DNA from: Patiria pectinifera | Taxonomy: Eukaryota; Echinodermata; Asteroidea; Valvatida; Asterinidae | Reading direction: 5' to 3' | Assembly: GCA_029964075.1 (NCBI GenBank) | Contig: CM057147.1 | Coordinates: 14,963,513-15,027,512 of the forward strand | Length of the DNA: 64,000 nt | Shown: positions 31,701 to 63,810 of the stretch, piece by piece | How the letters are laid out: each line of letters starts with the position of its first letter | Numbering within the stretch: position 1 is the stretch's first letter | The notes under the pieces: generated by a model | Databases searched by the model: none | The model's input: only the letters and a program-made list of their open reading frames with translations | Told to the model about the DNA's origin: nothing | Made by a program: the position numbers and the translations under genes

Positions 31701-34700
31701 TTTTCATCCTCAAGTTTGAAAGCTGCTTCATTTTTTACAATTAAATTTTTAAGTAAAATACCAGATCTTGCCAATTTCTTTCCACATATTTGGTATGGAA
31801 AGCACAATCTGTCACTTTTGTTTTTTCTTTTTTAACCCTAACTCCCTACTGTCTTTTACTAAGTACTGGACCGAGTCTGCCAAAATCCATCAATCACACT
31901 GCTTCCAATGCATGCTTTGCTTCAGGCCTCCAGGCCCAAGTCCATCATACTCCGTCAATATTTAGTTAAACCAGGCCTGCAGGACCAAGTCCCCCAAAAT
32001 CCACCAAAATGGGAGGGGGGGGGGAAGAGTGGATTTTTATGCAGTTGGGGAGGTTAGGGTGAAATGAGAAATTTATAGAAACGAAGATCTTACTGTGTAC
32101 ATGCAGGTTTCCACGACGACAGGCACATCCTCCAACCCAGGGAAATATTGTCGGGCAAACGATCGGATTTTCTCCATGTGGACGTGACGATCGGCTAACA
32201 GGACGTCTCTCTTGTCTGGGTCGCAAACCTCGTGCTCGGTGTGATCACATAGCTGCATTGACCAATCAAAACACATCTTTTACAGATTCTTAATCGTGAT
32301 TGGTTGAGACAAGGTAACAGGTGTATAAATCTTTGGGAACTTGTTACAATCGGGAGTCAACAGTCAACAATGCCGATATCTGCTGTAAGTCGTCATTTTG
32401 ACGACTTACATGAATGGTATGCACACATGATTCATTGCACTAATTGGCTTCGATTTACCCTGGATTATCTCCTTAATGCTTGAGTTGAATCCAGCAAATT
32501 AATCCTCAAATTGTATCATCACGTTTGGGGTACTGATAGAGGAGACCACGATACACACATGTATGTACATGCACAGTAACGAATTAAATGCGTGCGTGGT
32601 CCAGTATATACCACGCACGCATTGACTGCAGCAGTAGTCATTCAATAAGACGATCCCCAGAATGGACAAAGCGCATGCGTACAGCCTAGAGGGGGTACTG
32701 GTATTGATATGCTCACGATGTATATGCGATGTATGCAGTAGGACACCCTTTTTCGACACCGATGCATGCAGCGATCACGGGCCGTGCAAAACCACTTTTT
32801 ACTCGACACTTTGCCAACCCCAGAACAGGAAGTCGATGCCAATGCGTGATTTGTTGAATGCCGACTTACACAAAGGATTTTGTAATGCTTTTTATGGAAA
32901 GGGGACCGAGAGTAACACGACGACTTGAGCGAAATGGCGACTTATAAAAGCCGACTTAGAAATAAAAAATTCAATGGAAATGCATTATGGACAATCGGGA
33001 CTTTAGTCAGACGGCCGACTTGAGCAATTTGACGAGTTGTACGATGTCGGTTTAGCCGGAGATTACTGTAGATGTGGCGTGTCAGATTGGGGTAATTCCG
33101 TAAATTCGGACGTACATGTCAGACACTTTTATGAGCTGCTGTTGGGAAAGTGAATGTGATACACCTACTGAGAAGAAAATAATTGCAGACCAAACTAAGG
33201 TACACCACTACCTTAACGCCCTTGCACATGTACATCATGTGGTCGGACGTAACATGAATTTTACGGAATTGCCCATAGACAGACTTAACACAACAGAAAG
33301 ACGGATGGGACTCGAACGAACAAACCACTTCAAGCCCAGGGTACTCCTGACTAGGCAGGGCATAGGTGTGAAGTGTCCGATAGGGAGACTGAACAATAAC
33401 AAATAAACCAACCGACAGATGATGGGACTTGGACAAACAAACCTTGACAGACAGACAGACAGACAGGGTATAAAGACTGATGGGGTTTGGACAACAACAA
33501 AAAACTTCACAAGAACCAGTTACTCCTCGCTCGGATGAGTGGGGTATCAGGCTTGAACAACAAGAGACACACAGATGGGCCCAGGACAAACAAACCTTGA
33601 TAAGTCCTGGGTACTCCTCGCTGGGCACTGCATAGGTATTGTCTCCTTTAGTGTAAGCGATGACAGCAGGCATATCATCAAAGGTACCAGGCTTTTTGGG
33701 CTTCCAGTAGCACACATCTAGTCTCCAGGGCTGGGGACAAAACAAAACAATCAACAGGAATTGGTATCTCTTTGTCCTATCCGCTCCGTTCACAAGTACC
33801 CCCTCACCGGCAAAGAAAGCACAGTTGGGGGTGACCGACCGACACCATCTTGCCCGACTGCAATTTTGCCGCGACGCGCGGCCGCACCATGTACCACTGC
33901 GTGTACATAGTACAAATCACCTGGTGTACGTGCGTCACACGAGGAACGGTGCGCGTCTACCAGCTAAATGTCCCGCCCATGGGACGTCGTTGCTAGGTAA
34001 AAGAGCGCCCTCTTTTGATGACGGAGCCCTTAGGTGACCCAAAGTTCTCTGGTGTTTACAACTGTAAACCTGATTGAATAAAATCAACTTTGGCATTGGC
34101 AGTTTCCCCTGTACCTAACGGTATTATTTTTTTTCTTCACAATTAAGTGACATTTTCTGTCCTTACAGGTAACTGCATCTGTCCCCACTGGTACTTTATA
34201 GATCTTTACTGGTAACCTTATCTTTCCTCACTGGTAACCCTATTTGTCCTCAATACAACCGTTTCTGTCCTCACTTGTAACCATTTCTATACTCACTGGT
34301 AACCATTTCTGTCCTCACTGGTAACCACGTCTGTCCTCAGTGGTAACCATTTCTGTCCTCAGTGGTAACCATGTCTGTCCTCAGTGGTAACCATTTCTGT
34401 CCTACATGTAAGTGGTAACCAATTCCATCCTCAATGGTAACCACGTCTAACTTCAGTGGTAACCATTTCTGTCCTCACTGGTAACCATTTCTGTCCTCAC
34501 TGGTAACCATTGCTGTCCTCACTGGTAACCATTTCTGTCCTCACTGGTAACCATTTCTGTCCTCACAGGTAATCATATCCTCACCATTTTTGTCCTCACT
34601 GGTAACCATTTCTGTCCACACTGGTAACCATTTCTGTCCTCACTGGTAACCATTTCTGTCCTCACTGGTAACCATTTCTGTCCTCACTGGTAAACATTTC

Positions 34701-37700
34701 TGTCCTCACTGGTAACCATTTCTGTCCTCACAGGTAATCATATCCTCACCATTTTTGTCCTCACTGGTAACCATTTCTGTCCACACTGGTAAACATTTCT
34801 GTCCTCACAGGTAATCATATCCTCACCATTTTTGTCCTCACTGGTAACCATTTCTGTCCTCATTGGTACTCATTTCTGTCCTCACAAATCGGGAAAATAA
34901 ACTCTGTAAGGATTCTGTATGTCACTTCATGTTCTTTTAGATTAGATGAAATATTACAGAGCCTGAAATTCTCCTTTAACGCATACATGTATTGTCAAAG
35001 GCAAAACCAAGTAAGTGTCTTGCCCAAGGACTTGTGTCCAATGATCAAATGGGCTCAGTGCGCAAATGAGAGAGGGCGCTAATTTACCACATTCTAGAGC
35101 CTCGGGACGGGGCCCTTCGCGTACTGGTTCACGCGCATATGGCGCAAAGTACGCACGACTTGTTTTATGCTGAATGTACACAAGGCCATAGCGTCTTCGC
35201 GGGAGCATCACGCGTCATCAGCAATGCCTCTGAATGTCAGGCGAAGCTGTCTCCCCCAACTCTCCCTTCCGTACCGTTGAGGGGGTACTTGTGCATGGAG
35301 CCCATCTGCCGGATTCAAGCTCACAATATGCAGAATTAACACGGGAAATGACAGACCAAAAAAAGGCCACAACATTACACAAGACAAGAGGGAGGAATTC
35401 CACTAGGCGAAGAATCTTTCCTCTCAATTTATTTGGAGGTGGGTCTTTTTCTTTTACCTTGAGAGGCGGGTCTAGTCCCAGAGGTCTGAGTATCTTAGAG
35501 GCCCAGGGTCCTGGAGTCAAGACGACACTCTTGCATCGGTAGTGGGCTCTGTTGGTCACGACGATCGGAGTTGTTCCTGGCAAGATCTGAAGGACTTGGT
35601 CGCTGTCATGTATGGTGCCCCCGTAATGCTGAAATTGTTTCTGGTGACGGAGAAGAATACATTGAAGTAGTAAACAAAAATATTCACGCCATGCATTAAC
35701 CTAAAATTAATTGGAAGACAGTAACAGTATGAAGGGGATCAAAGGAGTTTAGGGGCGTAAATTGGTACTTTTGGCCATCAGGAGTAAATTAGTTTTGGGG
35801 ATGTTAAAATGGGCCTTAAGTTTGCACATTTCGTCACCGTTTTGACGAGGTGACGAATCTGTTTGGAGAAAATCGCGTTTGAAGTTGGTCAGTTTTTCAA
35901 ACTGCAACTTTTATATCACATATACAACTGATGCGATAGCCCAGTAATTAAATAGCCACCCCCAAAAAATCTGTTTTCACAAAATCATGCTAAATTAGGA
36001 GACATAAATCACTAAAGAAATTCGTCAAAACGGAAATTCTACTTGGTCACAAAAAATGTAGCACTGTATGTTTGCACACAGCGCACGTGCATATAAATTA
36101 CATACATTTTAGAATGCAGATTCCTCACTTCCTCAAACACAAATCGTGAAGGCTACATAAATCTCAATATAGCACACGTGTAAAATCAATGAGACTAATT
36201 GACGAATACAGATTCATTCTTCCTTTCGTCAAAACGAAAAACCGAGTGTGTAGCACTTTCCTTACCTTTCCCTTATTTTCATTCACACGTACTCTTATGT
36301 AACAGTTTTTTTTTGTTGTTTGTATTTTTACTTTTTTGTGTTTATAAGTTTGGTTGACAGTAACTGATTTTCGTTTAGAATGAAAAATATAACACTGTTC
36401 ATGTACAGCCGTTTCTCTTTATTCGTATTTATTAACCCTAACGTACCTGAATCCATCAAAATCCACACCCCTGTTACGGGGGATTTCGGTGGATTCAGGA
36501 TACCTCCATATTGCACAAACTGGGGGATTTTGATGGATTCAGGATTGTTAGCCTAGCGGAACTGCAGAATTTTGATGGATTCAGGATACCTCTATATTGA
36601 GCCGTTGGGGGACTTTCGCGGATTCAGGATCTCAACAGATTTACTCCCGGCTAACTGGTGGATTCTGATGGACTCACTGGCCATCAACATCTTTTTGCAT
36701 GGCAAAATTGATAGATTTTGGCGGATTCAGGATACTTTCTAGTAAAAGAGCCCCAGGGGTTAGGGTAAATGATTTTTTTTTAACTGCGGAGGGGTTGCTT
36801 TTAAGCAGTTTTAAAAAACAATTCTGGCTTGTCCCATACCTGCATGGCTTGCAAGCATTTGTCAGCCAGCAAGACTCCCCCGTCGTGCTCAATCAGTCCT
36901 CGAGTGTCGTCCGAGACTTCAATCCCAGGGTACTTCTGATTGATCTCCGGCCCCGTCAGCCGGGTGTAGGTGTGGTTGATGGAGTCCAGGGCTCGCTGCA
37001 TGTTATCCAGGCTTTTGTACGGCGGTTCAGCGAAGGCAAGCAAGCCATCTTTCCTACAAGTTCAGGAAAGAACATAGAGCTTTATTAAATTACGAGAGAG
37101 CTAACTCTTCATTCTTGCGCGCAGAGAAGCTTTGAAGCCGCTCTGGGCGCAGACATTTTGAATTTATGTGCGTGTTTTAGAACACAATCAAAAAAGATGG
37201 ATTGAATTTTAAAAGTGTACTCTAAATGCAACGCGCAAGTAGAAGATATGCAAACAACTTAAGCGCGCCATGAAGTTAAAAAAAACCACGTCATGGCGTA
37301 AAGCATCTACAGTGGAGGGACGAAAAAAATACCTAGGGAGCTAGGGTTAATGTTGTTCCTGGTAGGTTGGTTCAGGCCCCATCAAAGTCTAAAAAGCAAT
37401 TGTAGGGCCAGGGGACCAGTAACACGTTGCACTAAATAGTCTGTTCACAGAAATAAAGATATACAATAAAGAATACCAGGCTATGTCCTATAAACCAAGT
37501 AGGCCTATTTGTGGCTAGGGCTCAGTTTTGCTGTCGACATAGCACAGTAAAAAGCCACAGCCACAGACGACAATGCCTATTTTGGACGTGGTCTACTGCT
37601 CACATACTCCTAGAACTATGTGGCTCCACGTAGCGGAGCCTCATAGAGTTAGAACCCCGCAAAATTGTTGTCAACACAAAACACTAATTAAGTACAAAAA

Positions 37701-39288: not shown

Positions 39289-41312
39289 TTCCACCTTTTT
39301 TAAGGAAGACTTTTAGAAAATCCGGACCGCTGTCAAGTGTGTCATCAACGTTCATGCAATCAACATTCAACACGCACCGCCGCGCCGACGTCTAATTATT
39401 AAATAATGCAACTCGGCAAAGAAGGCAGGAATCCAACCCTGCATTCGGTGGTGCCAGCCTATACTCTTTAGAAGAAGTTTAACTTTTTTACCTCATAAAA
39501 TGAACATTGAGGCGAAAATGAGGAGGGTCGATCCTACTCTACACCATTCTACACAGTACAAAAACTCATGCATAGTGCATAGATTATACACGGGGAACTA
39601 AATACTACAGTTATTAAAATGTGCACAAAAGAAAAGGCTGATTTTTAGGACGGTCGAGATCCGAGCAGGTCGCCAATTATATAAGGGGGGGGGGGCCTGG
39701 TGGGGCCTTGGCGAGCAATTGCCCCCCCTCCAAGGCAAAAGCCATACATGTGTATTTTTGTATTTTTATGGTAGTGGGCCCCCCTAGTTAGTACTATGCC
39801 CCCCCCCCCCCCGCCCCGACGCTCAGGGCTGGCGACCGCGTTAAGTTTAGGATCCGAGACTACCACAGGCATATAACGTGACAGTCATATGTTTAGGGGG
39901 AAAAATGGGGGGTGAAGACCAGGACAGGAATCCAACCACGACCCTCCATTTAGAAAAGAAAAAGAAAACTTTTCTGCTATAAAATTCGAATCCGACTTAA
40001 AGAAAAAATAGTTATTCGGGGAAAAAAATCAAAAACTTTCTATTTAACTCTAGATCAACTCTAGATCATATCTCGCAAGGCGTTTGAAATTTTAATTTAA
40101 TGCACCTAGTATATATTTCCTGAGTTGTTGCCCAAAAACGAGTTTATTTCAACATTACAATTTCATCCAGTGATTTGTCATGATGACTGTGTGACAAAAT
40201 GAGATTTAATTTTATAAGAACCCGTCAAACTAAAAAAAAAAAAATAATATCACTGAAACAAGCATAGTATTTTAACGCGAAAAACTAATACAAACCGAAT
40301 TTGAATGAAAAAAAGTGGAGCAGCCTCGACTACATGGGCGCGTGCGCGTTCCTTCACTAACCCCTGGCCGTGATGTACACGCAGACGATGCTACTGCGCG
40401 CGCATTTCGAAAATTGCACGCCGAGCGCGCCCATAATGCGCTCGCGTGCTTTGCACGTCACGTCAAAACTGCGCGATGCATGTACGATATGGATTATGGC
40501 AGCCTCGTTTTTCGCTAAAAAGGACCCTGTATCTAACTGCGGTTGTAAAGGGACGAAAGGGGTATGTACCTTTAATACAAATCTTTGCTAAATAACGCAA
40601 CGTCCAAACCTTATGTTTGAAAGCATTCATTCTTCAAAAACACAAAAGATGGCGTCGGCGCGTAAAACCATACCATACACAGACCCATATACACAGACTG
40701 GATAGGACATGTGCGTCCGAACAGCGTCTGCGCGCGTGTTTTTTGAAAAGGGTAAAGAACACAATTTCGCATTCGAGTTGGGTACACTTTCGAACGGAGG
40801 ATTAAAAAATGAAGTTGGGTTTTCTTCAGTGTTCTATAAAACAAAGAACTTCAGCAAAGCCGTAGCAAAAACCACCAGCTGCAGGACGATATCGAGACGC
40901 ACGAAAATGGAGAACTTCACGGAGGGATGGAATTGGATGTATCATCCATTGAATGGAACATGCGATGTGATAGGCATCTGAGAGTTTGACTTAATCAATT
41001 CTTACGATGTGGAACTGTTAACATTGATTGATTTTGTTTTTGGAAAGAAGCTGTGGAGTTCAATGCAAGTATCTTCATGAGTTCCCAAGATGACTGTCAC
41101 ATTATTGACAGTTGGTATGGTGAAGAAAGTAATGAGTACTTGTACGGCTTGAAATTATATTGTGCACGCCATTATATAAGATTACTAGCTATAGCCATAT
41201 ACACCTTCATTTTCGCTCACAAAAAAACGATTCCCATTACACTTACAATTTCAGAAGTATAGCTAAATATTCAATTATCAACAAGACCGTGCGAAGCTCG
41301 AATTATTCTTGA
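39289..41312. other. PIPOX upstream DNA, no gene seen
   Basis: No TATA box or second gene is recognised. 39,650-39,835 has poly-G/poly-C tracts. 40,080-40,315 resembles half of the satellite monomer (cagtgatttgtcatgatgac, gagatttaattttataagaa, cccgtcaaac) and marks the outer edge of that repeat family. 40,320-40,740 is CpG-rich. Confidence 0.5.
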
Positions 41313-44300
41313 GTTACTTCGGAAACCTAATTGTTTATTTTTGTTCAATAGTGCAACATCCGCACCAATATTCTTCTATTAAATAGAGGGCGCGCCACAT
41401 AAAAAGTGGTCTCGATAATATTATCCACCACCAAACTCGTTTGGGGGGGGGGCAACAACTCCACAAATACAACATGTTTTCAATTGAATTTTCGTCTAGT
41501 GATTTATCCATATGTTTTACATTACGAAATTTAATTTCATAAGAAACCGTCAAACAATGAAGCAGTATTGACCGTAACAATACAGTGTTTTATTAAGCGC
41601 AACATAATTATGCAATCCGAATGAAAATCAATTCGTATTTTTCGCGTGTAAAACGATCATATTATTTTTATCGTTGGACTGTTTCTCATGATATTCAATA
41701 CACCTCTGTTACACATCGTGGAAATGAATTGCACGACATTTCAGGTTAATACATTTTGTATTTCTTGAGTTATTCATCGGAAACTGAGTTGTTAGTTTTG
41801 TTCAATAGTGCAGCATCCGCACTAATATCTTTATTTAGTTAGATGGCGCCCCACATGAATAGTGGACTCGATAATTATCCACCACCAAACTCGGTTGGGG
41901 GCAACAACTCAAGAAATACAACATGTTCTGTATTGAATTTTTGTGTGGTGATTTGTCCATATGTTTAACATTGCGAAATTTAGTTTCACAAAAAACCGTC
42001 AAAAAATGAAGCAATATTGACCGTAACAATACAGTGTTATAAGCGCGACCAATGTAATTCGAATAAAAATCATTGTGGATTTTTAGCGTGTTAAACACTA
42101 CATTGTTACGATCATATTATTTTTATCGTTGGACTGTTTCCTCATGATATTCAATACACCTCTGTTACACATCATGGAAATGAATTGCACGAAATTTTAG
42201 GTTAATACATTTTGTATTTCTTGAGTTATTCATCGGAAACTGAGTTGTTAATTTTGTTCAATAGTGCAGCATCCGCACCAATATCTTTATTTAATAGAGG
42301 GCGCGCCACATAAATAGTGGTCTGGATAATTATCCACCACCAAACGCTGTTGGGGGGCAACAACTCCAGAAATACAAGATGTTTTGTATTGAATTTTTGT
42401 GTGGTGATTAGTCCATATGTTTAACATTGCGAAATTTAATTTCACAGGAAACCGTCAAAAAATGAAGCAATATTGACCGTAACAATACAGTGTTATAAGC
42501 GTGACCAATGCAATCCGAATGAAAATCAATGTGTATTTTTCGTGTGTTAAACACTACATTGTTACGATCATATTATTTTTATCGTTGGACTGTTTCTCAT
42601 GATATTCAATACACCTCTGTTAAACATCGTGGAAATGAATTGCACGAAATTTCAGGTTAATACATTTTGTATTTCTTGAGTTATTCATCGGAAACTGAGT
42701 TGTTAGTTTTGTTCAATAATATCTTTATTTAGTTAATAGATGGCGCCCCACATAAATAGTGGTCTCAGTAATTATCCACCACCAAACTCGGTTGGGGGGG
42801 GGGGTAACAACTCCAGAAATACAAGATGTTTTGTATTGAATTTTTGTGTGGTGATTTGTCCATATGTTTAACATTACGAAATTTAATTTCACAAGAACCC
42901 GTCAAAAATGAAGCAATATTGACTGTAACAATACAGTGTTATAAGCGCGACCAATGCAATCCGAATGAAAATCAATGTGGATTTTTAGCGTGTTAAACAC
43001 TACATTGTTACGATCATATTATTTTTATCGTTGGACTGTTTCTCATGATATTCAATACCCCTCTGTTACACATCGTGGAAATGAATTGCACGAAATTTCA
43101 GTTTAATACATCTTGTATTTCTTGAGTTATTCATCGGAAACTGAGTTGTTAGTTTTGTTCAATAGTGCAGCATCCGCACTAATATCTTTATTTAGTTAAT
43201 AGATGGCGCCCCACATAAATAGTGGACTCGATAATTATCCACCACCAAACTCGGTTGGGGGCAACAACTCCAGAAATACAAGATGTTTTGTATTGAATTT
43301 TTGTGTGGTGATTTGTCCATATGTTTAACATTGCGAAATTTAATTTCACAAGAAACCGTCAAAAATTGAAGCAATATTGACCGTAACAATACAGTGTCAT
43401 AAGCGCGACAAATGCGTTCCGAATGAAAATCAATGTGACTGTATTTTTTCGCGTGTAAAACACTACATTGTTACGATCATATTATTTTTATCGTTGGACT
43501 GTTTCTCATGATATTCAATACACCTCTGTTACACATCGTGGAAATGAATTGCACGAAATTTCAGGTTATCACATTTTGTATTTCTTGAGTTATTCATCGG
43601 AAACTGAGTTGTAAGTTTTGTTCAATAGTACAGCATCCGCACCAATATCTTTTTTTAGTTGATAGAGGGCGCCCCACATAAATAGTGGTCTCGATAAATA
43701 TCCACCACCAAACTCGTTTGGGGGGGGGGGGGGCAACAACTCCAGAAATACAAGATATTTTGTATTGAATGTTTGTGTGGTGATTTGTCCATATGTTTAA
43801 CATTACGAAATTTAATTTCATGACAAACTGTCAAAAAAAATGAAGCAATATTGACCGTAACAATACAGTGTCATAAGCGCGACCAATGCAATCCGAATGA
43901 AAATCAATGTGTATTTTTCGCGTGTTAAACACTACATAGTTACGATCATATTATTTTTATCGTTGGACTGTTTCTCATGATATTCAATACACCTCTGTTA
44001 CACATCGTGGAAATGAATTGCACGACATTTCAGTTCAATACATTTTGTATTTCTTGAGTTATAAATCGGAAACTGAGTTGTAAGTTTTGTTCAATGGTGC
44101 AGCGTCCGCACTAATATCTTTATTCCGTTAATAGATGGCGCCCCACATAAATAGTGGACTCGATAATTATCCACCACCAAACTCGGTTGGGGGGCAACAA
44201 CTCAAGAAATACAAGATGTTTTGTATTGAATTTTTGTGTGGTGATTTGTCCATATGTTAACATTACGAAATTTAATTTCATGACAAACCGTCAAAAAATA

Positions 44301-46500
44301 AAGCAATATTGACCGTAACAATACAGTGTTATAAGCGCGACCAATGCAATCCGAATGAAAATTAATGTGTATTTTTCGTGTGTTAAACACTATATTGTTA
44401 CGATCATATTATTTTCATCGTTGGACTGTTTCTCATGATATTCAATACACCTCTGTTACACATCGTGGAAATGAATTGCACGAAATTTCAGTTTAATACA
44501 TCTTGTATTTTTTGAGTTATTCATCGGAAACTGAGTTGTTAGTTTTGTTCAATAGTGCAGCATCCGCACCAATATCTTTATTTAGTTAATAGATGGCGCC
44601 CCACATAAATAGTGGTCTCGATAATTATTCACCACCAAACTCGTTTGGGGGGCAACAACTCCAGAAATACAACATGTTCTGTATTGAATTTTTGTGTGGT
44701 GATTTGTCCATATGTTTAACATTGCGAAATTTAATTTCACAAGAAACCGTCAAAAAATGAAGCAATATTGACCGTAACAATACAGTGTTATAAGCGCGAC
44801 CAATGCAATCCGAATGAAAATCAATGTGTATTTTTCGCGTGTTAAACACTACATTGTTACGATCATATTATTTTTATCGTTGGACTGTTTCTCATGATAT
44901 TCAATACCCCTCTGTTACACATCGTGGAAATTAATTGCACGAAATTTCAGTTTAATACATCTTGTATTTCTTGAGTTATTCATCGCAAACTGAGTTGTAA
45001 GTTTTGGTCAATAGTGCAGCATCCGCACCAATATCTTTATTTAATAGAGGGCGCGCCACATAAATAGTGGTCTGGATAATTATCCACCACCAAACTCGTT
45101 TGGGGGGCAACAACTCCAGAAATACAAGATGTTTTGCATTGAATTTTTGTGTGGTGATTTGTCCATATGTTTAACATTACGAAATTTAATTTCATGACAA
45201 ACCGTCAAAAAATAAAGCAATATTGATCGTAACAATACAGTGTTATAAGCGCGACCAATGCAATCCGAATGAAAATCAATGTGTATTTTTCGCGTGTTAA
45301 ACACTACATTGTTACGATCATATTATTTTTATCGTTGGACTGTTTCTCATGATATTCAATACACCTCTGTTACACATCGTGGAAATGAATTGCACGAAAT
45401 TTCAGGTTAATACATTTTGTATTTCTTGAGTTATTCATCGGAAACTGAGTTGTTAGTTTTGTTCAATAGTGCAGCATCCGCACCAATATCTTTATTTAAT
45501 AGAGGGCGCGCCACATAAATAGTGGTCTGGATAATTATCCACCACCAAACTCGTTTGGGGGGCAACAACTCCAGAAATACAAGATGTTTTGTATTTAATT
45601 TTTGTGTGGTGATTTGTCCATATGTTTAACATTGCGAAATTTAATTTCATGACAAACCGTTAAAAAATGAAGCAATATTGACCGTAACAATACAGTGTTA
45701 TAAGCGCGACCAATGCAATCCGAATGAAAATCAATGTGTATTTTTAGCATGTTAAACACTTCATTGTTACGATCATATTATTTTTATCGTTGGACTGTTT
45801 CTCATGATATTCAATACACCTCTGTTACACATCGTGGAAATGAATTGCACGACATTTCAGTTTAATACATCTTGTATTTCTTGAGTTATTCATCGGAAAC
45901 TGAGTTGTTAGTTTTGTTCAATAGTGCAGCATCCGCACTAATATCTTTATTTAGTTAATAGATGGCGCCCCACATAAATAGTGGTCTGGATAATTATTCA
46001 CCACCAAACTCGTTTGGGGGGCAACAACTCCAGAAATACACGATGTTTTGTATTGAATTTTTGTGTGGTGATTTGTCCATATGTTTAACACCACGAAATT
46101 AATTAATTTCATGACAAACCGTCAAAAAATAAAGCAATATCGATCGTAACAATACAGTGTTATAAGCGCGACCAATGCAATCCGAATGAAAATCAATGTG
46201 TATTTTTCGCGTGTTAAACACTACATTGTTACGATCATATTATTTTTATCGTTGGACTGTTCCTCATGATATTCAATACACCTCTGTTACACATCGTGGA
46301 AATGAATTGCACGAAATTTCAGGTTATTAAATTTTGTATTTCTTGAGTTATTCATCGGAAACTGAGTTGTTAGTTTTGTTCAATAGTGCAGCCGCACCAA
46401 TATCTTTATTTAATAGATGGCGCGCCACATAAATAGTGGTCTCGATAATTATCCGTCACCAAACTCGTTTGGGGGGCAACAACTAAATACAAGATATCTT
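41313..46500 (+). repeat. satellite array, about 11 copies, about 457-bp period
   Basis: The landmark gaaatgaattgcacga recurs at 41721, 42177, 42632, 43078, 43541, 44010, 44468, 44927 (variant), 45382, 45837 and 46299, a spacing of 446-469 bp. Each monomer holds gagggcgcgccacataaata, a short G-run, gtgtggtgatttgtccatat, aaccgtcaaaaaatgaagca and ttgttacgatcatattattt. Each monomer is also a diverged inverted repeat of itself (tttaatacatcttgtatttc against gaaatacaagatgttttgta). The short open frames are by-products of the repeat. Confidence 0.92.
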
Positions 46501-46900: not shown

Positions 46901-47229
46901 TGCGCGCGTGCCTGTTCTAAGTAGAGGGCGCACCACATATATAGTGGTCTCCGCGAAGCATCTCCTTGCGGATGCTGCACTATTCAACAAAAAGATCACA
47001 CTCGTTTCCGATCAACAACTCAAGAAATACTAGGTGTATTAAATTCAAATGTCGTGCACTGATTTTCCACGATGTGTAACATGAGGAGTTTGAATATAAT
47101 AATAGACCGCCAAACAATAACAATAATATGATCGTAACAATGTAGTGTTTTAAACACGAATTGACTTTTATTCGGATTGTAGGGCCTACCTGTCTATGGC
47201 GTGTCAAACATTGCAATATTCAATATTTT

Positions 47230-47570
47230 GCAATATATATGTTGGATGCTCAATATGTGTTTGTTATCTTTTACATTTATGTGCGATGTTCAATATAAGT
47301 GTGCGATGTTTTTCATTATTTGCGCGGTGTTTCATATATTTGTGCGATGTTTTACAATATATGTGCGATGTTCAATATATGTGTGCGATGTTTTACATTT
47401 ATATGCGATTTTCAATTTATATGTGCGATGTTTGTGACGATATATAATTATGTGCGATGTTTTCAATATTATGTTCGATTTTTTGCATTAAATGTGCGAT
47501 GTTTTTCGATACAATTGTGTGTGTTGTTTTACAATATATTTGCGATATTCTCAAATATGTGAGCAATGTT
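47230..47570 (+). repeat. 'tgtgcgatgtttt' short tandem array, left arm
   Basis: About 14 degenerate units of 20-25 bp built on tgtgcgatgttttacaatat. Inverted counterpart at 55,600-55,990. Frames through it read repeated Cys-Ala/Val-Met/Arg-Phe words, which I take as a by-product of the repeat. Confidence 0.85.
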
Positions 47571-47584
47571 TTACACATATGTTT

Positions 47585-47874
47585 CCTTCGGATGGGACGT
47601 AAAGCCGTAGGTCCCGTGTGTTGTGTAATGCACGTTAAAGAACCCAGTAACACTTATCGCTAAGAGAAGGGGTTTGCCCCGGTGTTTCTGGCAGTGGCTG
47701 CAATATGCGCCGCTGTACCTTGTAAACCATTATAAGGTGCTACATAATGGGTCTCATATTTCTCATAAACTTTATTTACCTTTCTTTAATAATAGACATA
47801 ATTTCCAGCGCCTTGAGTACCTAATTGTTGGTAGATACGTGCGCTATATAAGACTCCGATATTATTATTAATAT
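47585..47874 (+). mobile_element. SINE-like repeat, copy 2, inserted in the left arm only
   Basis: Flanked by an exact 7-bp direct repeat TATGTTT (47,578-47,584 and 47,875-47,881). The matching place in the right arm (about 55,645-55,670) has the uninterrupted sequence. The body matches 340-622. Confidence 0.8.
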
Positions 47875-48359
47875 TATGTTTGACATTTCGAGCTATTTGT
47901 ATTCGATGTTTCATCAGTATGTTTGCACACGATCTTTTGCAATATGCATTTGATGTTTCCCTTTTCATTCGATGTTTCGTTAAGAGTCAAAGTCTGGTTA
48001 CTAATAGACCGCGAAAGTCTGACTATTTTGCCTAAAGTCAGTGTATGAGACGTCAGGGGATCGCGTAAAGTGATTAGAGCCAGACCTAAACGGTAAAAAC
48101 CGGAATTGTGGGTAATACTTCAAGCATACGGAATGCCGGCTGCGTTTTTCATTGTTTGGGCAGTACCCCCAGCTGTGCCTGTACTACCCATAGTGTTATG
48201 TGCATCATCTATGCACTGAGGAGTGCATGACACATGGTCTGAGCTCCAAGGCCGATGTGCACCTGTCCCGTTTAATGATGCAGTTACCTGATAATTTGTT
48301 AGCATAAGCTGATGTAAAATTGGGCAAAATTAGATGTTAATGAAAAAAAAATCAAATTG

Positions 48360-49050
48360 TAAGGGGTTAACCTTGCATTTTTTTTTTACAAAATCGGGAA
48401 AAATCAGATGTTTCTGGAAAATTGCAGATTGTATGGGGTTAGATGTTTATGAAACTTTTCAAATTGTAAGGGGTGAACATCATGATTGCATATTTTAGCG
48501 AAATTGGGCGAAATCAAATGTTTCCGAAAAAATTCAGATGAAAGGGATTATCCTTGCTTTTTTAGTGAAATTTGGCAAAGTTAGATGTTTATGAAAAATT
48601 TCAAATTATAAGGGGTTAACCTTGCATTTTTTAAGCGAAATTGGGGGGAAAATCTGATGTTTCTGGAAAATTGCAGATTATAAGGGGTTAACCTTGCTTT
48701 TTGAATAAGATTGGGAAAAATGAGATGTTTATGAAAAAAAGTTCAAATTGTAAGGGGTTAACCTTGCATTTTGTTTTAGCAAAATTATAGGACACAATCA
48801 GATGATTCTGGAAAATTGCAGATTGTAAGGGCTTAACCCTGTATTTCTAGCAAAATTGGGCAAAAAGAAATGTTTATGAAAAATTTTAAATTGTAAGAGG
48901 TGTACCTTGTATATTTAGTAAAATTTGGCAAAATCAGATTTGTATGAAAAATCTAAAATGGTAAGGGGTTAACCTTGCTTTTTTAGCAAAATTTGGAGCA
49001 TATTTTACTAAAATTGCCGGGGCAAAATCAGATGCTTCTAAAAAAATCCA
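48360..49050 (+). repeat. 70-75-bp 'aaggggttaacc' array, left outer block
   Basis: Units alternate between a type with tttatgaaaaatttcaaatt and a type with tttctggaaaattgcagatt, each ending gtaaggggttaaccttgc. Inverted counterpart at 54,470-55,200. Confidence 0.85.
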
Positions 49051-49493
49051 GATGTAAAGTTTCCACAAAAACAGCTGTTGAAAAAGAGCCCAATGTTGAA
49101 CTTTACTGAGTCTGAGGTCTATGGAGGGGACCATCCTTATTTCAACTCCCGGAGATTCGCTGACAGTCTCTATTTTTCTTTTTAAGAAAGTCGAAATAGC
49201 TGAAGAGGGAGGTGAGAATCTATATGTGCCCAGATACAAAGAGTAGAAATCTACGCGTCTGCCTTTTGAAAATACACAATTGCGGTGTTCATTGTTGCGT
49301 AATGATCCGCCTAGCACACGACTTTTTTGCACGTTAGGCTGTGTTATGCAGCTTCCTAACAAACCAAACACACTGGGCTCATTATATCGACTTGTTTTTA
49401 CCCATTAAGGTAAAGCAAATGGACCCTGTAATCTTCCTCGCGCGTTTGCTCACCTATAAAGACAACTTTTCTCAGTTTAAGGAAAATTCTAAG

Positions 49494-49568
49494 GTAACAA
49501 AATGGCCGAGTGGTTACGATTCGTCGTCCACGGTTAGCGGGGTCCCGGGTTCGAATCCCGCTGCTGTC
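49494..49568 (+). tRNA. tRNA-like sequence (pseudo-tRNA or SINE head), left arm
   Basis: Exact pol III A-box TGGCCGAGTGG (49,503-49,513) and B-box GGTTCGAATCC (49,548-49,558) at tRNA spacing, with a T-run after it. A T-arm forms (cggg-ttcgaat-cccg), but the acceptor strands pair poorly and no clean anticodon stem is found, so a working tRNA is unlikely. Near-identical inverted copy at 53,965-54,040. Confidence 0.5.
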
Positions 49569-49634
49569 TTTTTGGTTTTTAACGTATGAGTTCAATTATT
49601 CACTATAAGAGATTTAATTTCCTGTCGTAAAGTA

Positions 49635-49935
49635 CCAACAGTACCTTAGCTTAATCGGTAAGCACTGCTGCTGGTACTGTCCGCGAGTTCCAGGTTGGCG
49701 CCTTCGTACAGGTTCAGGGCATGTGGTCCACTCGGAGGATCAGGGCTTAGGGGCCGCCCTGTTCCTCCCTTAGCTCTTTGCTTTTACATGGTGCCTGGCC
49801 CTCCGGGGTTATATGGATGGATAGGGAAGGAAGTGTGTATTGGTCGGGGACGCCGAGACCCCGGAAGAGAACTAAGGGATCGGCTGGGGCATTGTTATGG
49901 CTCAGACCGATCCCTGAAAGCTTGACTAGCACATA
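49635..49935 (+). repeat. GC-richer module of the left arm
   Basis: Begins with tagcttaatcgg, an A-box-like word (49,646-49,657), followed by ggccctccggggttatatgg, ggggacgccgagaccccgga and ggctcagaccgatccctgaa. The inverted copy at 53,600-53,900 is nearly base-identical: a 61-residue frame is the same in both. Composition differs sharply from the AT-rich arms. Confidence 0.75.
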
Positions 49936-50455
49936 ACTTTTTGATTTTTTTTACCCTCTATCTTTTATACTTTGGTTTAGTTTGATATCTACAGCTGCTC
50001 GGCAGGTCTACGGGTAGTATCAAAATTGAAACAAAGGTGTATGTCATAAATCGATGAATATTTCATAATTGACTATAATCAAAACGGAGTTTCGTTTAAT
50101 CAATTTGACTATCATTATATAATGACGCGATTGCCAATTGACGTAAGAAACGCCATAAATTATACAGGGAAAGAATAAAGATGTACATTGTAATATAAAT
50201 ATTATTTATACATCTTTCAAATAACGTGTCTTTAATTGTGAGCATTCCAAACAACACAGTAATTCGCAATAGTAATATGCCCCTATGTGTGAAATATTTT
50301 TTGATTGACTATGAGCATTCCATACGAATGAGTTAATTCGCAAAATATAGCAACAACAAAAGAGAAAGGAAAAAGAGAAAATTCCTTTACCCTAAAAACT
50401 GGAAAAATAATTTGTTTTAAAAAAGTCAAATGGGACACTTCATGTATTGATTTAA

Positions 50456-53083
50456 CAGTTTGCAAGGGGTTAACCTTACATTTTAGCGAAATTGGGAAAA
50501 ATCAGATCTTTCTGGAAAATTTCAGATTGTAAGGGGTTAACCTTGCTTTTGTAGTAAAATTTGGCAAAATAAGATGTGTATGAAAAATTTCAAATTGTAA
50601 GGGGTTAACCTTTCTTTTTTAGTAAAATTGGGAAAATTTAAATGTTTATGAAAAATTTCAAATTGTCAGTGGTTAACCTTGCATTTTTTAGCAAAATAGG
50701 GCAAAATCAGGTGTTTATGGAAAATTTCAGATGGTAAGGGGTTAACTTTGCATTTTTAGCAAAATTGGGCAAAATCAGATTTGTATGAAAAATCAAAAAT
50801 TGTAACGGGTTAACCTTGCCAAATTAGGGCAAAATCAGATGTTTCTGGAAAATTGCAGATTGAAAGGGGTTAACCTTGCTTTTTTAAGCGAAATTGGGAA
50901 AAATCAGATGTTTTTGGAAAATTGCAGATTGTAAGGGGTTAACTTGTCATTTTTAGCATAACTGGGCAATATCAGATTTATATGAAACATCTCAAATTGT
51001 AAGGGGTGATCCTTGTATTTTTAGCGGAAACTTTACATCTGGATTTTTTAGAAGCATCTGATTTTCCCCAATTTTAGTAAAATATGCTCCAAATTTTGCT
51101 AAAAAAGCAAGGTTAACCCCTTACCATTTTAGATTTTTCATACAAATCTGATTTCGCCAAATTTTGCTAAATATACAAGGTACACCTCTTACAATTTAAA
51201 ACATTTTCATAAACATTTCTTTTTGCCCAATTTTGCTAAAAATACAAGTTTAAGCCCTAACAATCTGCAATTTTCCAGAATCATCGGACAATTTGAATTT
51301 TTTTCATGAACATCTAATTAATTTTTCCCAATCTTATTCACAAAGCAAGGTAAACCCCTTACAATCCGCAATTTTCCCAATTTCGCTTAATAAATGCAAG
51401 GTTAACTCATTATTATTTGAAATTTGTCATAAACTTCTAACTTTGCCTAATTTCACTAAAAAAGCAAGGATAATCCCTTACATCTGAAATTTTCCAAAAC
51501 ATCTGATTTTGCCTTATTTTGCTAAAACAAATGCAATCTTAACCACTTACAATTTGAAATTTTTCATAAACATCTAATTTTACCAAATTTCACTAAAGAA
51601 AAAAGTAAGGTTAATTCCTTACATCGGAATTTTTTTCAGAAACATCTGATTTTGCCCAATTTTGCTAATATATGCAAGGTTCACCCCTTACAATTTGAGA
51701 TTTTTCATAAAAATCTCATTTTGCCAAATTTTGCTTAAAATGCAAGGTTAACCCCTTTCAATCTGCAATTTTCCAGAAACATCTGATTTTGCCCTAATTT
51801 GGCAAAGGTTAACCCCTTACAATGTTTTGATTTGTCATACAAATCAGATTTTTCCCAATTTTGCTAAAAAATGCAAGGTTAACCCCTAACAATTTGAAAT
51901 TTTTCATTCACATGTAAATTCGCCCAATTTTACTAAAAAAGCAAGGTTAACCCCCTTACATCTGATTTTGCCCAATTTTGCAAAAAATGCAAGGTTCACC
52001 GCTTACAATTTGAGATTTTTCATAAAAATCTGATATTGCCCAGTTTTGCTAAAAATGCCAGGTTAACCCCTTTCAATCTGCAATTTTCCAGAAACATCTG
52101 ATTTTGCCCTCATTGGGCAAAGGTTAACCTCTTATAATTTTTGATTTTTCATACAAATCTGATTTTTCCCAATTTTGCTAAAAATGCAAGGTGAACCCCT
52201 TACAATCTGACATTTTCCAAAACACATGATTTTGCCCTATTTTGCAAAAAAATGCAAGGTTCACCCCTTACAATTTTAGATTTTTCATAAACATCTAAAT
52301 GTTCCCAATTTTACTAAAAAAGCAAGCTTAACACCTTACAATTTGAAATTTTTCATACACATCTTATTTTGCCAAATTTTACTACAAAAGCAAGGTTAAT
52401 CCCTTACAATCTGAAATTTTTTCATATAAATCTGATATTGCCCAGTTATGCTAAAAATGCCAAGTTAACCCCTAACAATCTTCAATTTTCAAGAAACATC
52501 TGATTTTTCCCAATTTCGCTTAAAAAAAGCAAGGTTAACCCCTTTCAATCTGCAATTTTCCAGGAACATCTGATTTTGCCCTAATTTGGCAAGGTTAACC
52601 CCTTACAATTTTTGATTTTGCATACAAATCTGATTTTGCCCAATTTTGCTAAAACTGCAAAGTTAACCCCTTACAATCTGAACATTTTCCATAAACACCT
52701 GATTTTGCCCTATTTTGCTCAAAAATGCAAGGTTAACCACTGACAATTTGAAATTTTTCATAAACATTTAAATTTTCCCAATTTTACTTATAAAGCAAGA
52801 TTAACACCTTACAATTTGAAATTTTTCATACACATCTTATTTTGCCAAATTTTACTACAAAAGCAAGGTTAACCCCTTACAATCTGAAATTTTCCAGAAA
52901 GATCTGATTTTACCCAATTTCGCTAAAAAATGCAAGGTTCACCCCTTACAATTTGAAATGTTTCATAAACATCTAAACTTTACTAAAAATGCAAGGTTAA
53001 CCCCTTACAAGCTGCAATTTTTCAGAAACATCTGATTTTTCCCAATTTTGCTAAAATGTAAGGTTAACCCCTTGCAAACTGTT
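50456..53083. repeat. central 70-75-bp array, with strand switch at about 51,025
   Basis: Left of about 51,025 the units read gtaaggggttaacc. To the right they read ggttaaccccttac up to 53,083. Pairing is seen between 50,500-51,020 and 52,410-52,910. 51,025-51,300 is a direct copy of 54,465-54,740. Confidence 0.85.
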
Positions 53084-53599
53084 AAATCAATACATGAAGT
53101 GTCCCATTTGATTTTTTTTTTTAATTATTTTTCCAGTTTTTAGGGTAAAGGAATTTTCTCTTTTTTTTCTCTTTTGTTGTTGCTATATTTTGCGAATTAA
53201 CTAATTCGTATGGAATGCTCATAGTCAATCAAAGAATATTTCACACATAGGCGCATATTACTATTGCGAATTACTGTGTTGTTTGGAATGCTCACAATTA
53301 AAGACACGTTATTTGAAAGATGTATCAATAATATTTATATTACAATATACATCTTTATTCTTTCCCGGTATAATTTATGGCATTTCTTACGTCAATTGGC
53401 AATCGCGTCATTATATAATGATAGTCAAATTGATCAAACGAAACTCCGTTTTGATTATAGTCAATTATGAAATATTCATTGATTTATGACATACACCTTT
53501 GTTTCAATTTTGATACTACCCGTAGACCTGCCGAGCAGCTGTAGATATCAAACTAAACCAAAGTATAAAAGATAGAGGGTAAAAAAAATTAAAAAGTTA

Positions 53600-53900
53600 T
53601 GTGCTAGTCAAGCTTTCAGGGATCGGTCTGAGCCATAACAATGCCCCAGCCGATCCCTTAGTTCTCTTCCGGGGTCTCGGCGTCCCCGACCAATACACAC
53701 TTCCTTCCCTATCCATCCATATAACCCCGGAGGGCCAGGCACCATGTAAAAGCAAAGAGCTAAGGGAGGAACAGGGCGGCCCCTAAGCCCTGATCCTCCG
53801 AGTGGACCAAATGCCCTGAACCTGTACGAAGGCGCCAACCTGGAACTCGCGGACAGTACCAGCAGCAGTGCTTACCGATTAAGCTAAGGTACTGTTGGTA
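53600..53900 (-). repeat. GC-richer module of the right arm
   Basis: Inverted partner of 49,635-49,935, with only scattered differences (for example a Cys/Phe-level change in one frame). High identity against diverged neighbours suggests recent duplication or arm-to-arm gene conversion. Confidence 0.75.
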
Positions 53901-53964
53901 CTTTACGACAGGAAATTAAATCTCTTATAGTGAATAATTGAACTCATACGTTAAAAACCAAAAA

Positions 53965-54040
53965 GACAGCAGCGGGATTCGAACCCGGGACCCCGCTAAC
54001 CGTGGACGACGAATCGTAACCACTCGGCCATTTCGTTACC
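53965..54040 (-). tRNA. tRNA-like sequence, right arm
   Basis: Inverted partner of 49,494-49,568, with A-box (inverted at 54,020-54,030) and a one-base variant of the B-box (GGATTCGAACC on the plus strand, 53,975-53,985). Same weak acceptor stem, so pseudo-tRNA or SINE head is the better reading. Confidence 0.5.
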
Positions 54041-54469
54041 TTAGAATTTTCCTTAAACTGAGAAAAGTTGTCTTTATAGGTGAGCAAACGCGCCAGGAAG
54101 ATTACTGGGTCTTTTTGCTTTACCTTAATGGGTAAAAACAAGTCGATATAATGAGCCCAGTGTGTTTGGTTTGTTAGGAAGCTGCATAACACAGCCTAAT
54201 GTGCAAAACAGTCGTGCAAGGCGGATCATTACGCAACAATGAACACCGCAATTGTGTATCTTCAAAAGGCAGACGCGTAGATTTCTACTGTTTGTATCTC
54301 GGCACATACAGATTCTCACCTCCCTCTTCATCTATTTCGATTTTCTCAAAAAGAAAAATAGAGACTGTCAGCGAATCTCCGGGAGTTGAAATAAGGAGTC
54401 GTCCCCTCAATAGACCTCAGACTCAGTAAAGTTCAACATTTGGCTCTTTTTCAACAGCTGTTTTTGCGG

Positions 54470-55200
54470 AAACTTTACATCTGGATTTTTTAGAAGCATC
54501 TGATTTTGCCCCGGCAATTTTAGTAAAATATGCTCCAAATTTTGCTAAAAAAGCAAGGTTAACCCCTTACCATTTTAGATTTTTCATACAAATCTGATTT
54601 TGCCAAATTTTACTAAATATACAAGGTACACCTCTTACAATTTAAAATTTTTCATAAACATTTCTTTTTGCCCAATTTTGCTAGAAATACAAGGTTAAGC
54701 CCTAACAATCTGCAATTTTCCGAATCATCTGATTGTGTCCTATTTTGCTTTTAAAAAAATGCAAGGTTAACCCCTTACAATTTGAATTTTTTTTGATGAA
54801 CATCTAATTTTTCCCAATCTTATTCAAAAAGTAAGTTTAACCCCTTACAATCTGCAATTTTCCAGAAACATTTGATTTTTTCCCATTTTCGCTTTAAAAA
54901 AATGCGAGGTTAACCCCTTTCAATTTGAAAGTTTTCGTAACATCTAACTTTGCAAAATTTCACTAAAAAAGCAAGGTTAATCCCTTACATCTGAAATTTT
55001 TCGGAAACATCTGATTTTGCCCAATTTCGCTAAAATATGCAATGTTCACCCCTTACAATTTGAAATGTTTCATAAACATCTAACCCCATACAATCTGCAA
55101 TTTTCCAGAAACATCTGGATTTTTCCCGATTTTGCTAAAAAAAATGCAAGGTTAACCCCTTACAATTTGATTTTTTTTTCATAAACATCTACTCTTGCCC
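54470..55200 (-). repeat. 70-75-bp 'ggttaacccctt' array, right outer block
   Basis: Inverted partner of 48,360-49,050, beginning gcggaaactttacatctgga at the inner edge. Confidence 0.85.
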
Positions 55201-55599
55201 AATTTTACATTCAGCTTATGCTAACAAATTATCAGGTAACTGGATCATTAAACGGGACAGGTGCACATCGGCCTTGGAGCTCAGACCATGTGTCATGCAC
55301 TCCTCAATGCATAGATGATGCACATAACACTATGGGTAGTACGCCTGTACTGTGGGTAGTACAGGCACAGCTGGGGGTACTGCCCAAACAATGATGAACG
55401 CGCATTGTGTATGCTTAAACAATTACCCACAATTCCGGTGTTTACCGTTTAGGTCTGGCTCTAATCACTTTACGCGATCCCCTGACGTCTCATACACTGA
55501 CTTTAGGCAAAAATAGTCAGACTTTCGCGGTCTAGTAACCAGACTTTGACTCTTAACGATACACCGAATGAAAAGGGAAACATCAAATGCATATTGCAA

Positions 55600-55990
55600 A
55601 AGATCGAATGCAAACATACCGATGAAACATCGAATACAAATAGCTCGAAATGTCAAACACATGTGTAAAACATAGCTAACATATTTGAGAATATCGCAAA
55701 TATATTGTAAAACAACACACACAATTGTATCGAAAAACATCGCACATTTAATGCAAAAAATCGAACATAATATTGAAAACATCGCACTTATATATCGTCA
55801 CAAACATCGCACAAATAAATTGAAAATCGCACATAAATGTAAAACATCGCACACATATAATGAACATCGCACATATATTGTAAAACATCGCACAAATATA
55901 TTAAACATCGCGCAAATAATGAAAAACATCGCACACTTATAATGAGTTATATTGAACATCGCACATAAATGTAAAAGATAACAAGCACAT
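55600..55990 (-). repeat. 'aaaacatcgcaca' short tandem array, right arm
   Basis: Inverted partner of 47,230-47,570 (units such as atattgtaaaacatcgcaca). Confidence 0.85.
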
Positions 55991-56611
55991 ATTGAACATC
56001 CAACATATATATTGCAAAATATTGAATATTGCAACGTTTGACACGCCATACCTGTCGCGCTTAAAACACTGCATTGTTTCTACCATAATAGCTTCATTAT
56101 TTGACGGTTTCTTACGAAATTAAATCTCGTAATGTTAAACATGATGACAAATATGTGTACAAAATTTCAGTTAAGTACACTTTGTATTTCTTGAGGTTTG
56201 GCTGGAATACCAGTTTGATCGTTTTGTTCAATAGCACAGCATCCGTGTATGGAGATGTTTTGCGGAGACCACTAGTTATGTGGCGCGCCCTCTATAAAAA
56301 AAAAAGTTCTGTATTAGGCAGACCACTGTAATCCCCTCTGTATGCTTAAATTCACAAATTTGATCGAGCAACCCGATGGCGTAGGGTTCTCATTATGGAC
56401 ACTGTAACACTATGATATTTAATTTTATGGGAAACCATCAAATAATAAAAACAAAATAATATGACCGAAACAATAATTTAGTAATTTAAACGCAACATCC
56501 ATAGAAAACTAATAGGCCTACACTGGGCAATAACCCGAGCCACCAGGCCCAGCTGTATTACGTAAGTTTAAGTTCGGCCAGTGATCGGTCTTGATTCGTC
56601 ACATGAGCTGA

Positions 56612-63619: not shown

Positions 63620-63810
63620 TTTGCGGTGACACCATGTGAATAAATCTCTTTTGTGAGTATGTGTGGTTCTGAAAAGAACCGGAGGGTTTCGAACAGTATG
63701 CTCTGCCCGTCGTCAGGAGAATGAGATTTATTCAGAGAGATTTATTCACATGGTGTCACTGCAAACTTATCTTGTTTAAGTATCTTTCCACCATGCAAAC
63801 CTTCAAATCT
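63620..63810 (-). repeat. hammerhead-like repeat, copy C, with inverted flanks
   Basis: Minus-strand core at 63,716-63,686: CTGACGA, stem GGGCAG-agcata-CTGTTC (six pairs with G-U), GAAAC. It is followed by ccggttcttttcagaacc. The core is enclosed by inverted gtgacaccatgtgaataaat and atttattcacatggtgtcac. Confidence 0.55.

Follow-up and report, generated by a model that had tools for sequence, protein, structure and literature searches.

Among the known foldback elements, FB of Drosophila and TU of the sea urchin have long inverted ends with an outer domain of tandem repeats and make target-site duplications of 9 bp and 8 bp, respectively. Most foldbacks have been placed in the Mutator superfamily; Galileo, in the P superfamily, is among the exceptions (PMC4079207, PMC3573991), and the ties of foldbacks to miniature inverted-repeat transposable elements (MITEs) and to satellites have already been published (PMC4079207). 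According to the account of Galileo, its arms lengthen via tandem repeats and the recruitment of internal sequence (PMC3573991). IS3EU transposons are described as having TA..TA termini and usually a 6-bp duplication, and GingerRoot transposons mostly likewise (PMC10045372). Here, we analyse a large palindrome in a stretch of 64,000 nucleotides of the sea star Patiria pectinifera (C19:14963513-15027512, hereafter the window), and conclude that it is very probably a non-autonomous foldback DNA transposon, with ends that resemble those of IS3EU and GingerRoot.

Comparison of the window with itself identified the palindrome as a true large inverted duplication: 47877-50949 matches 55659-52587 in inverted orientation, in a single hit with 92.5% identity over 3,112 aligned columns. 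An earlier note, made from the sequence alone, had placed the palindrome at 46918..56332, between matching TAGAGGGCGC termini, with arms inverted around about 51.7 kb. The inverted arms are real, but the element spans 47195-56050 (Table 1) and it turns elsewhere. An exact 9-mer of its 68-bp repeat has plus orientation at each of its 11 sites as far as 50935, and all 17 sites from 51112 onward are on the minus strand, which puts the change of orientation near 51.03 kb. The two different tandem arrays that had been noticed in the arms are present; their units measure about 20/41 bp close to the ends and 68 bp in the interior. The gap-free identity between the arms is 97.2% for the terminus and the 20-bp array, 96.5% for the outer unique part, 95.9% for the outer 68-bp block, 97.5% for the core, and 85.1% for the inner 68-bp block. 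The left arm has an extra insertion (47585-47874) with no counterpart in the right arm; its ATT-rich tail suggests that it may be like a short interspersed element (SINE).

Evidence for transposition comes from the other copies of the element. We searched the whole genome (613.5 Mb in 1,020 contigs, as in all subsequent searches) with a probe of the outer arm and obtained 30 loci from 40 scored places (199 candidates). In 26 of them, including the window copy, there is a sharp boundary at TATGGCGTGTCAAAC (one locus having CAT for TAT). The sequence GGCGTGTCAAAC is found at the same point in 26/30 loci, and the flanks differ except in four duplicate pairs. The four loci without the boundary as scored are L012, L017, L021, and L029; the terminus is present with one mismatch in L021 and lies just beyond the locus in L029. 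The elements of the family are bounded by TATGGCGTG...CACGCCATA. The exact 15-base terminus occurs 148 times in the genome (72 forward and 76 reverse), and a 22-mer of the inner core, with at most one mismatch, 358 times (170 and 188); the reversed-pattern controls gave 0 matches in both cases. Among the first 100 of the 148 terminus places there are 28 inward-facing pairs under 20 kb, of which 25 were read (those left unread, at C6:13.89, C14:21.26, and C14:30.78, measure 18.9-19.4 kb). Perfect 6-bp duplications flank 20 of these 25 pairs; two have one mismatch, one has a duplication of 8 bp, and two have none. In a subset of 20 pairs of 6.4-19.9 kb, the corresponding numbers are 17 perfect 6-bp duplications, two with one mismatch, and one of 8 bp. 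Two of these 20 pairs repeat the site of another, leaving 18 independent sites, 15 of which have a perfect 6-bp duplication. Individual examples include copy A (C14, 8,391 bp, duplication CCGTAC), copy C (C21, 11,922 bp, duplication AGTGTC), which lies outside the 100 terminus places as does the window copy, and the short copies L072 (2,937 bp) and L074 (3,905 bp), all with perfect 6-bp duplications. The earlier note had suspected a giant non-autonomous foldback element and proposed to look for further copies bounded by TAGAGGGCGC and for their target-site duplications. Many copies were found, although they share the TATGGCGTGTCAAAC terminus instead, and the duplications are there, mostly of 6 bp; together with the sharp common termini, they support that suspicion.

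The TAGAGGGCGC motif has a different origin. When the flanks are joined without the element, the resulting sequence aligns in one piece through the junction, at 77-81%, with six of the seven MITE loci compared (L002, L003, L004, L005, L007, and L008, but not L006; drawn from 85 matches). This alignment implies that an older palindromic MITE was the insertion site of the giant element, and that the TAGAGGGCGC termini are those of the target. The hypothesis that the palindrome is itself an TAGAGGGCGC-bounded element, as first proposed, would fit the position of the motif, which begins at 46922 and whose inverse finishes at 56294, and the existence of a second outer-arm locus, L017, with TAGAGGGCGC-type sequence outside its arm. 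Yet these two are the only such loci, the motif being missing from the other 28/30 in the stretch examined, and in L017 the motif sits within an oppositely oriented 455-bp tandem array, which borders directly on an arm truncated about 80 bp before the terminus. The outer stretches in the window are just 76-77% alike (77% for the MITE halves), as against 96-98% for four of the five arm blocks, and the uninterrupted MITE is present elsewhere. We thus give this hypothesis almost no credit: the common TATGGCGTGTCAAAC boundary, the motif-free loci, and the empty-site alignment rule out TAGAGGGCGC as the ends of the element, which are TATGGCGTGTCAAAC and its inverse. A 455-bp tandem array with 11.3 copies, related to the TAGAGGGCGC MITE, also occupies 41306-46484 of the window. 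Matches with a similar spacing occur elsewhere, e.g., next to L017 on C14, on C21 at 21.73 Mb, and on C13 at 12.33 Mb, and the flank of L037 has short matches to the array of L017. This array is probably a MITE-derived satellite.

Could the copies have arisen without transposition, by false inverted joins in the assembly or by the spread of blocks in segmental duplications? The flanks are 94-97% alike in four pairs of loci, L031/L020 and L027/L034 (C18), L014/L018 (C14), and L030/L038 (C2), and the same flanking bases are found at C8:7.40/7.79 and at C10:11.10/11.25, as expected from duplicated blocks. Against such an origin stand the 18 different sites among the 20 pairs, 15 with a perfect 6-bp duplication. 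Furthermore, in the window copy one arm alone carries an insertion, and the two arms diverge by 2.5-15% depending on the block, which is not what falsely joining a single read would give. We regard an origin of this kind as very improbable. The three refuting conditions named in the earlier note (lack of other copies, lack of target-site duplications, a false inverted join) did not overturn its reading as a foldback element. The copies instead have what is expected of a foldback transposon: long inverted repeats that make up most of the element, internal tandem repeats, common termini, target-site duplications, and dispersed locations. Its assignment to a superfamily is less certain. The earlier note could not match the element to a named family, but the ends (TATGGCG...CGCCATA, i.e., TA..TA) and the 6-bp duplication fit IS3EU/GingerRoot, and the architecture fits Galileo and Tetris. 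A foldback of another superfamily (P/Galileo-like, Mutator-like, or Polinton-derived) with a fortuitous 6-bp duplication has in its favour that Galileo (P) and Tetris (provisionally Mutator) are described with the same architecture (PMC3573991, PMC4079207), and that Polintons are also reported to make 6-bp duplications (PMC10045372). It has against it the TA..TA termini, given for IS3EU and mostly for GingerRoot (PMC10045372), and the length of the duplications, which is 6 bp in 19/20 pairs (two with one mismatch) and 8 bp in one, when 8-10 bp are reported for Tetris (PMC4079207). A Pfam scan of 17 short frames revealed neither Polinton-type integrase or polymerase genes nor P-type/THAP domains, no P or THAP model having been searched genome-wide. 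Polintons have AG..CT ends. We thus consider another superfamily unlikely, if far less so than an artefact. Mobilisation in trans by an IS3EU/GingerRoot-like enzyme would be somewhat more likely than not, judging from the ends and the duplications, and this placement is provisional because no autonomous partner was found.

The element was initially described as lacking a transposase and any coding capacity. The frames tested revealed no transposase, but there are 15 stop-to-stop frames of at least 80 amino acids; the longest (156 amino acids), the sole one of the 15 scanned, has no Pfam match at E<=1. Genome searches with the IS481 model (68 of 2,155 candidates scored) and with the rve_3 model (150 of 1,269 candidates scored) gave mostly frames long enough for polyproteins of the long terminal repeat type. 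A 12.2-kb unit at C2:1664336-1676571 has the termini of the family and a perfect duplication, GGTGCG, and 2.5 kb from its middle (L123) are unlike the window element. This unit is a possible lead toward the autonomous partner.

Shorter relatives give some indications on how the arms may have been built. Four of them (L072, L073, L077, and L078) have a common interior, 88-92% alike in the main matches, that is unrelated to the window element, of whose outer arm they retain about 650 bp. In L074, the ends of the family are associated with 68-bp repeats and a piece of the core, in a single orientation. These relatives suggest that the arms may have grown by drawing internal sequence inward, in the manner reported for Galileo (PMC3573991). 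The 68-bp motif is abundant in the genome (1,732 and 1,203 matches in the two orientations, 0 for the reversed-pattern control). It also forms free arrays; the two that were read, L081 (C2:7255700-7258900) and L082 (C1:17166700-17168400), have a single orientation, lack the element termini in the stretch read and are 71-76% identical to the repeats of the element in the hits shown. This likeness implies that the element and the satellite share a source. A conserved box is visible in the 68-bp repeat, in a comparison biased by the choice of units by that very box.

To assess the age of the family, we used 36 core arms (one place sampled twice; probe 49317-50379), whose median pairwise identity is 98.3%. 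The family is probably young on this estimate, although 30 of the 36 arms were drawn from the 40 best-scoring of 830 candidates, and the family as a whole may therefore be older. The two arms of a copy do not generally resemble each other most: only 2/10 presumed same-element arm pairs are reciprocal best matches, so that conversion within copies is no general pattern (pair A is counted here once L057, the same locus as A left, is disregarded, and the members of L056/L051, 20 kb apart, may be separate elements). The pairing of arms along the chromosomes was analysed with 100 core arms among those listed, from C1 to C14:21.5 Mb. Inward pairs under 16 kb number 31 and take in 62 of these arms, against a mean of 10.8 and a maximum of 21 in 10,000 strand shuffles; four neighbouring pairs face outward.

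Several observations weigh against a non-autonomous transposon moved in this manner. In L073 and L075 the ends match and the 6-bp flanks do not, and the copy at C18:10.68 has an 8-bp duplication. Outside the inward pairs under 16 kb there are 38 of the 100 core arms. No autonomous copy was found, the shorter-frame hits of the IS481 and rve_3 searches being uninspected; the 17 frames scanned gave 0 Pfam families at E<=1, and of the four frames of L123 compared with Pfam, three had no match and one a sub-cutoff match of 13.9 bits. Finally, the estimate of youth leans on a biased sample of best-scoring arms.

The core copies listed are grouped in clusters of Mb scale. Collapsing the 100 core arms gives 69 elements, of which 64 lie within 1 Mb of another, against 24.0 expected (maximum of 44 in 2,000), and they fill 15/70 five-Mb bins against 42.8 expected; these statistics used guessed lengths for C6 and C12. 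Another motif, with a complete list of 44 matches (0 for its reversed-pattern control), occupies 13 contigs and 19 five-Mb bins, for the most part within the domains of the core. Segmental duplication contributes to the clustering, given the four pairs of loci with similar flanks mentioned above. The members of these pairs are roughly 130-430 kb apart, and the two pairs of C18 are nested, in inverted arrangement about a point near 11.58 Mb, either as a large inverted duplication or as uncollapsed haplotypes in the assembly. A simple association with centromeres is weakened by the lack of the core 22-mer on C4, C7, C11, and C12 among the matches listed, by the outliers on C9 and C10, and by the C14 domain, which spans over 10 Mb. 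It is conceivable, if rather doubtful, that on about a dozen chromosomes the giant palindromic subfamily is preferentially kept in, or directed to, one or a few domains of Mb scale, which may plausibly be pericentromeric. It would transport satellite-like 68-bp repeats there as a mobile element, and would be the first IS3EU-type foldback radiation shaping such regions.

The RNA polymerase III-like modules proposed for the arms were not demonstrated. ARAGORN found 0 tRNA genes, and the single indication is the 15-base hairpin CGGGTTCGAATCCCG, which matches the T-arm of the Rfam transfer-messenger RNA model with 12.4 bits, under the gathering threshold of 47. Box A is present in 35/36 core arms and box B in 36/36, a retention that is not special, since 47% of all 11-mers are conserved in 34 or more arms. 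A structured RNA in the core was rejected, since the fold of 49640-49940 is no stronger than those of shuffled sequences (z -1.17; 14/100 as good).

These results are compatible with the following scenario. A DDE/integrase-like transposase encoded outside the element, with IS3EU/GingerRoot as its most likely type, would bind the TATGGCGTG tip, and probably also the subterminal repeats of about 20 bp, excise the unit, and insert it with a 6-bp stagger. The arms may have grown from inverted ends of about 0.65 kb, like those of the shorter relatives, when the internal 68-bp repeats and the inner core were drawn into both arms, and the arrays may have been enlarged by unequal exchange. The window copy would have landed in the older MITE and received the SINE-like insertion in one arm later.

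The window contains other features. A second, small foldback-like structure (3431-4367) consists of two arms of 16-bp repeats (CAACTCGTACGCGAGC) in inverse orientation, separated by about 640 bp; a minisatellite with a 22-bp unit, ACTGGTAACCATTTCTGTCCTC, lies at 34208-34886; and a histone 3' untranslated region stem-loop is found at 63640-63685 on the minus strand (40.5 bits).

Table 1. Coordinates in the window of the components of the foldback element, its target, and its insertion.
Feature	Position	Strand	Remarks
Complete foldback element	47195..56050	none	8,856 bp, TATGGCGTGTCAAAC...GTTTGACACGCCATA; from sharp boundary, ends, and duplication
Target-site duplication, left, CCTGTC	47189..47194		flank comparison
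Target-site duplication, right, CCTGTC	56051..56056		perfect 6-bp match to left copy
Left arm	47195..50949	+	includes the extra 290-bp insertion 47585-47874
Right arm	52587..56050	-	
Subterminal tandem array, left	47231..47582	+	unit of about 20/41 bp, ATGTGCGATGTTT...
Subterminal tandem array, right	55734..55945	-	
SINE-like insertion, left arm only	47585..47874		direct repeat TATGTTT (7 bp) at 47578-47584 and 47875-47881
Outer block of 68-bp tandem array, left arm	48313..49044	+	
Outer block of 68-bp tandem array, right arm	54487..55210	-	
Inner core, left arm	49045..50455	+	97.5% to right arm
Inner core, right arm	53082..54486	-	
Central 68-bp tandem array	50456..53081		orientation switch at about 51030
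T-arm/B-box-like hairpin CGGGTTCGAATCCCG	49546..49560	+	mirror copy 53973-53987; putative polymerase III role
Left half of older TAGAGGGCGC MITE	46922..47194	+	empty-site join aligns to MITE copies
Right half of older TAGAGGGCGC MITE	56057..56294	-	

If the ends are truly of the IS3EU type, the foldback architecture would have evolved independently in a further integrase lineage. The presence in one genome of more than 20 copies with measured duplications, of short relatives that have the ends of the family, and of free arrays of the internal repeat makes it possible to test directly how arms become longer and how transposons and satellites share sequences. The tight clustering and the duplicated neighbourhoods also make the family a candidate for ectopic recombination and inversions.

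In the library of papers searched, we found none joining 'foldback element' and 'IS3EU', and no giant palindromic element like this one, the closest being Tetris and Galileo. The IS3EU and GingerRoot transposons, as described, share with this family the TA..TA termini and the 6-bp duplications (PMC10045372), but here there is no transposase in the frames tested. Galileo, in the published account, resembles it in its long and internally repetitive inverted ends, which are longest in copies without a transposase frame, and in the uneven distribution of copies along chromosomes; it differs in that its inverted ends reach about 1.26 kb, against more than 3 kb here, and in that its transposase is known (PMC3573991). 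Tetris of Drosophila virilis is also presented as a non-autonomous foldback whose ends contain tandem repeats that also form free satellite arrays; it has a related MITE and its transposase was not found, but its duplications are of 8-10 bp and three structurally complete copies are described, as opposed to 6 bp and more than 20 measured copies here (PMC4079207). What is new relative to known foldbacks is thus the length of the arms, the type of duplication, and the clustering of the copies.

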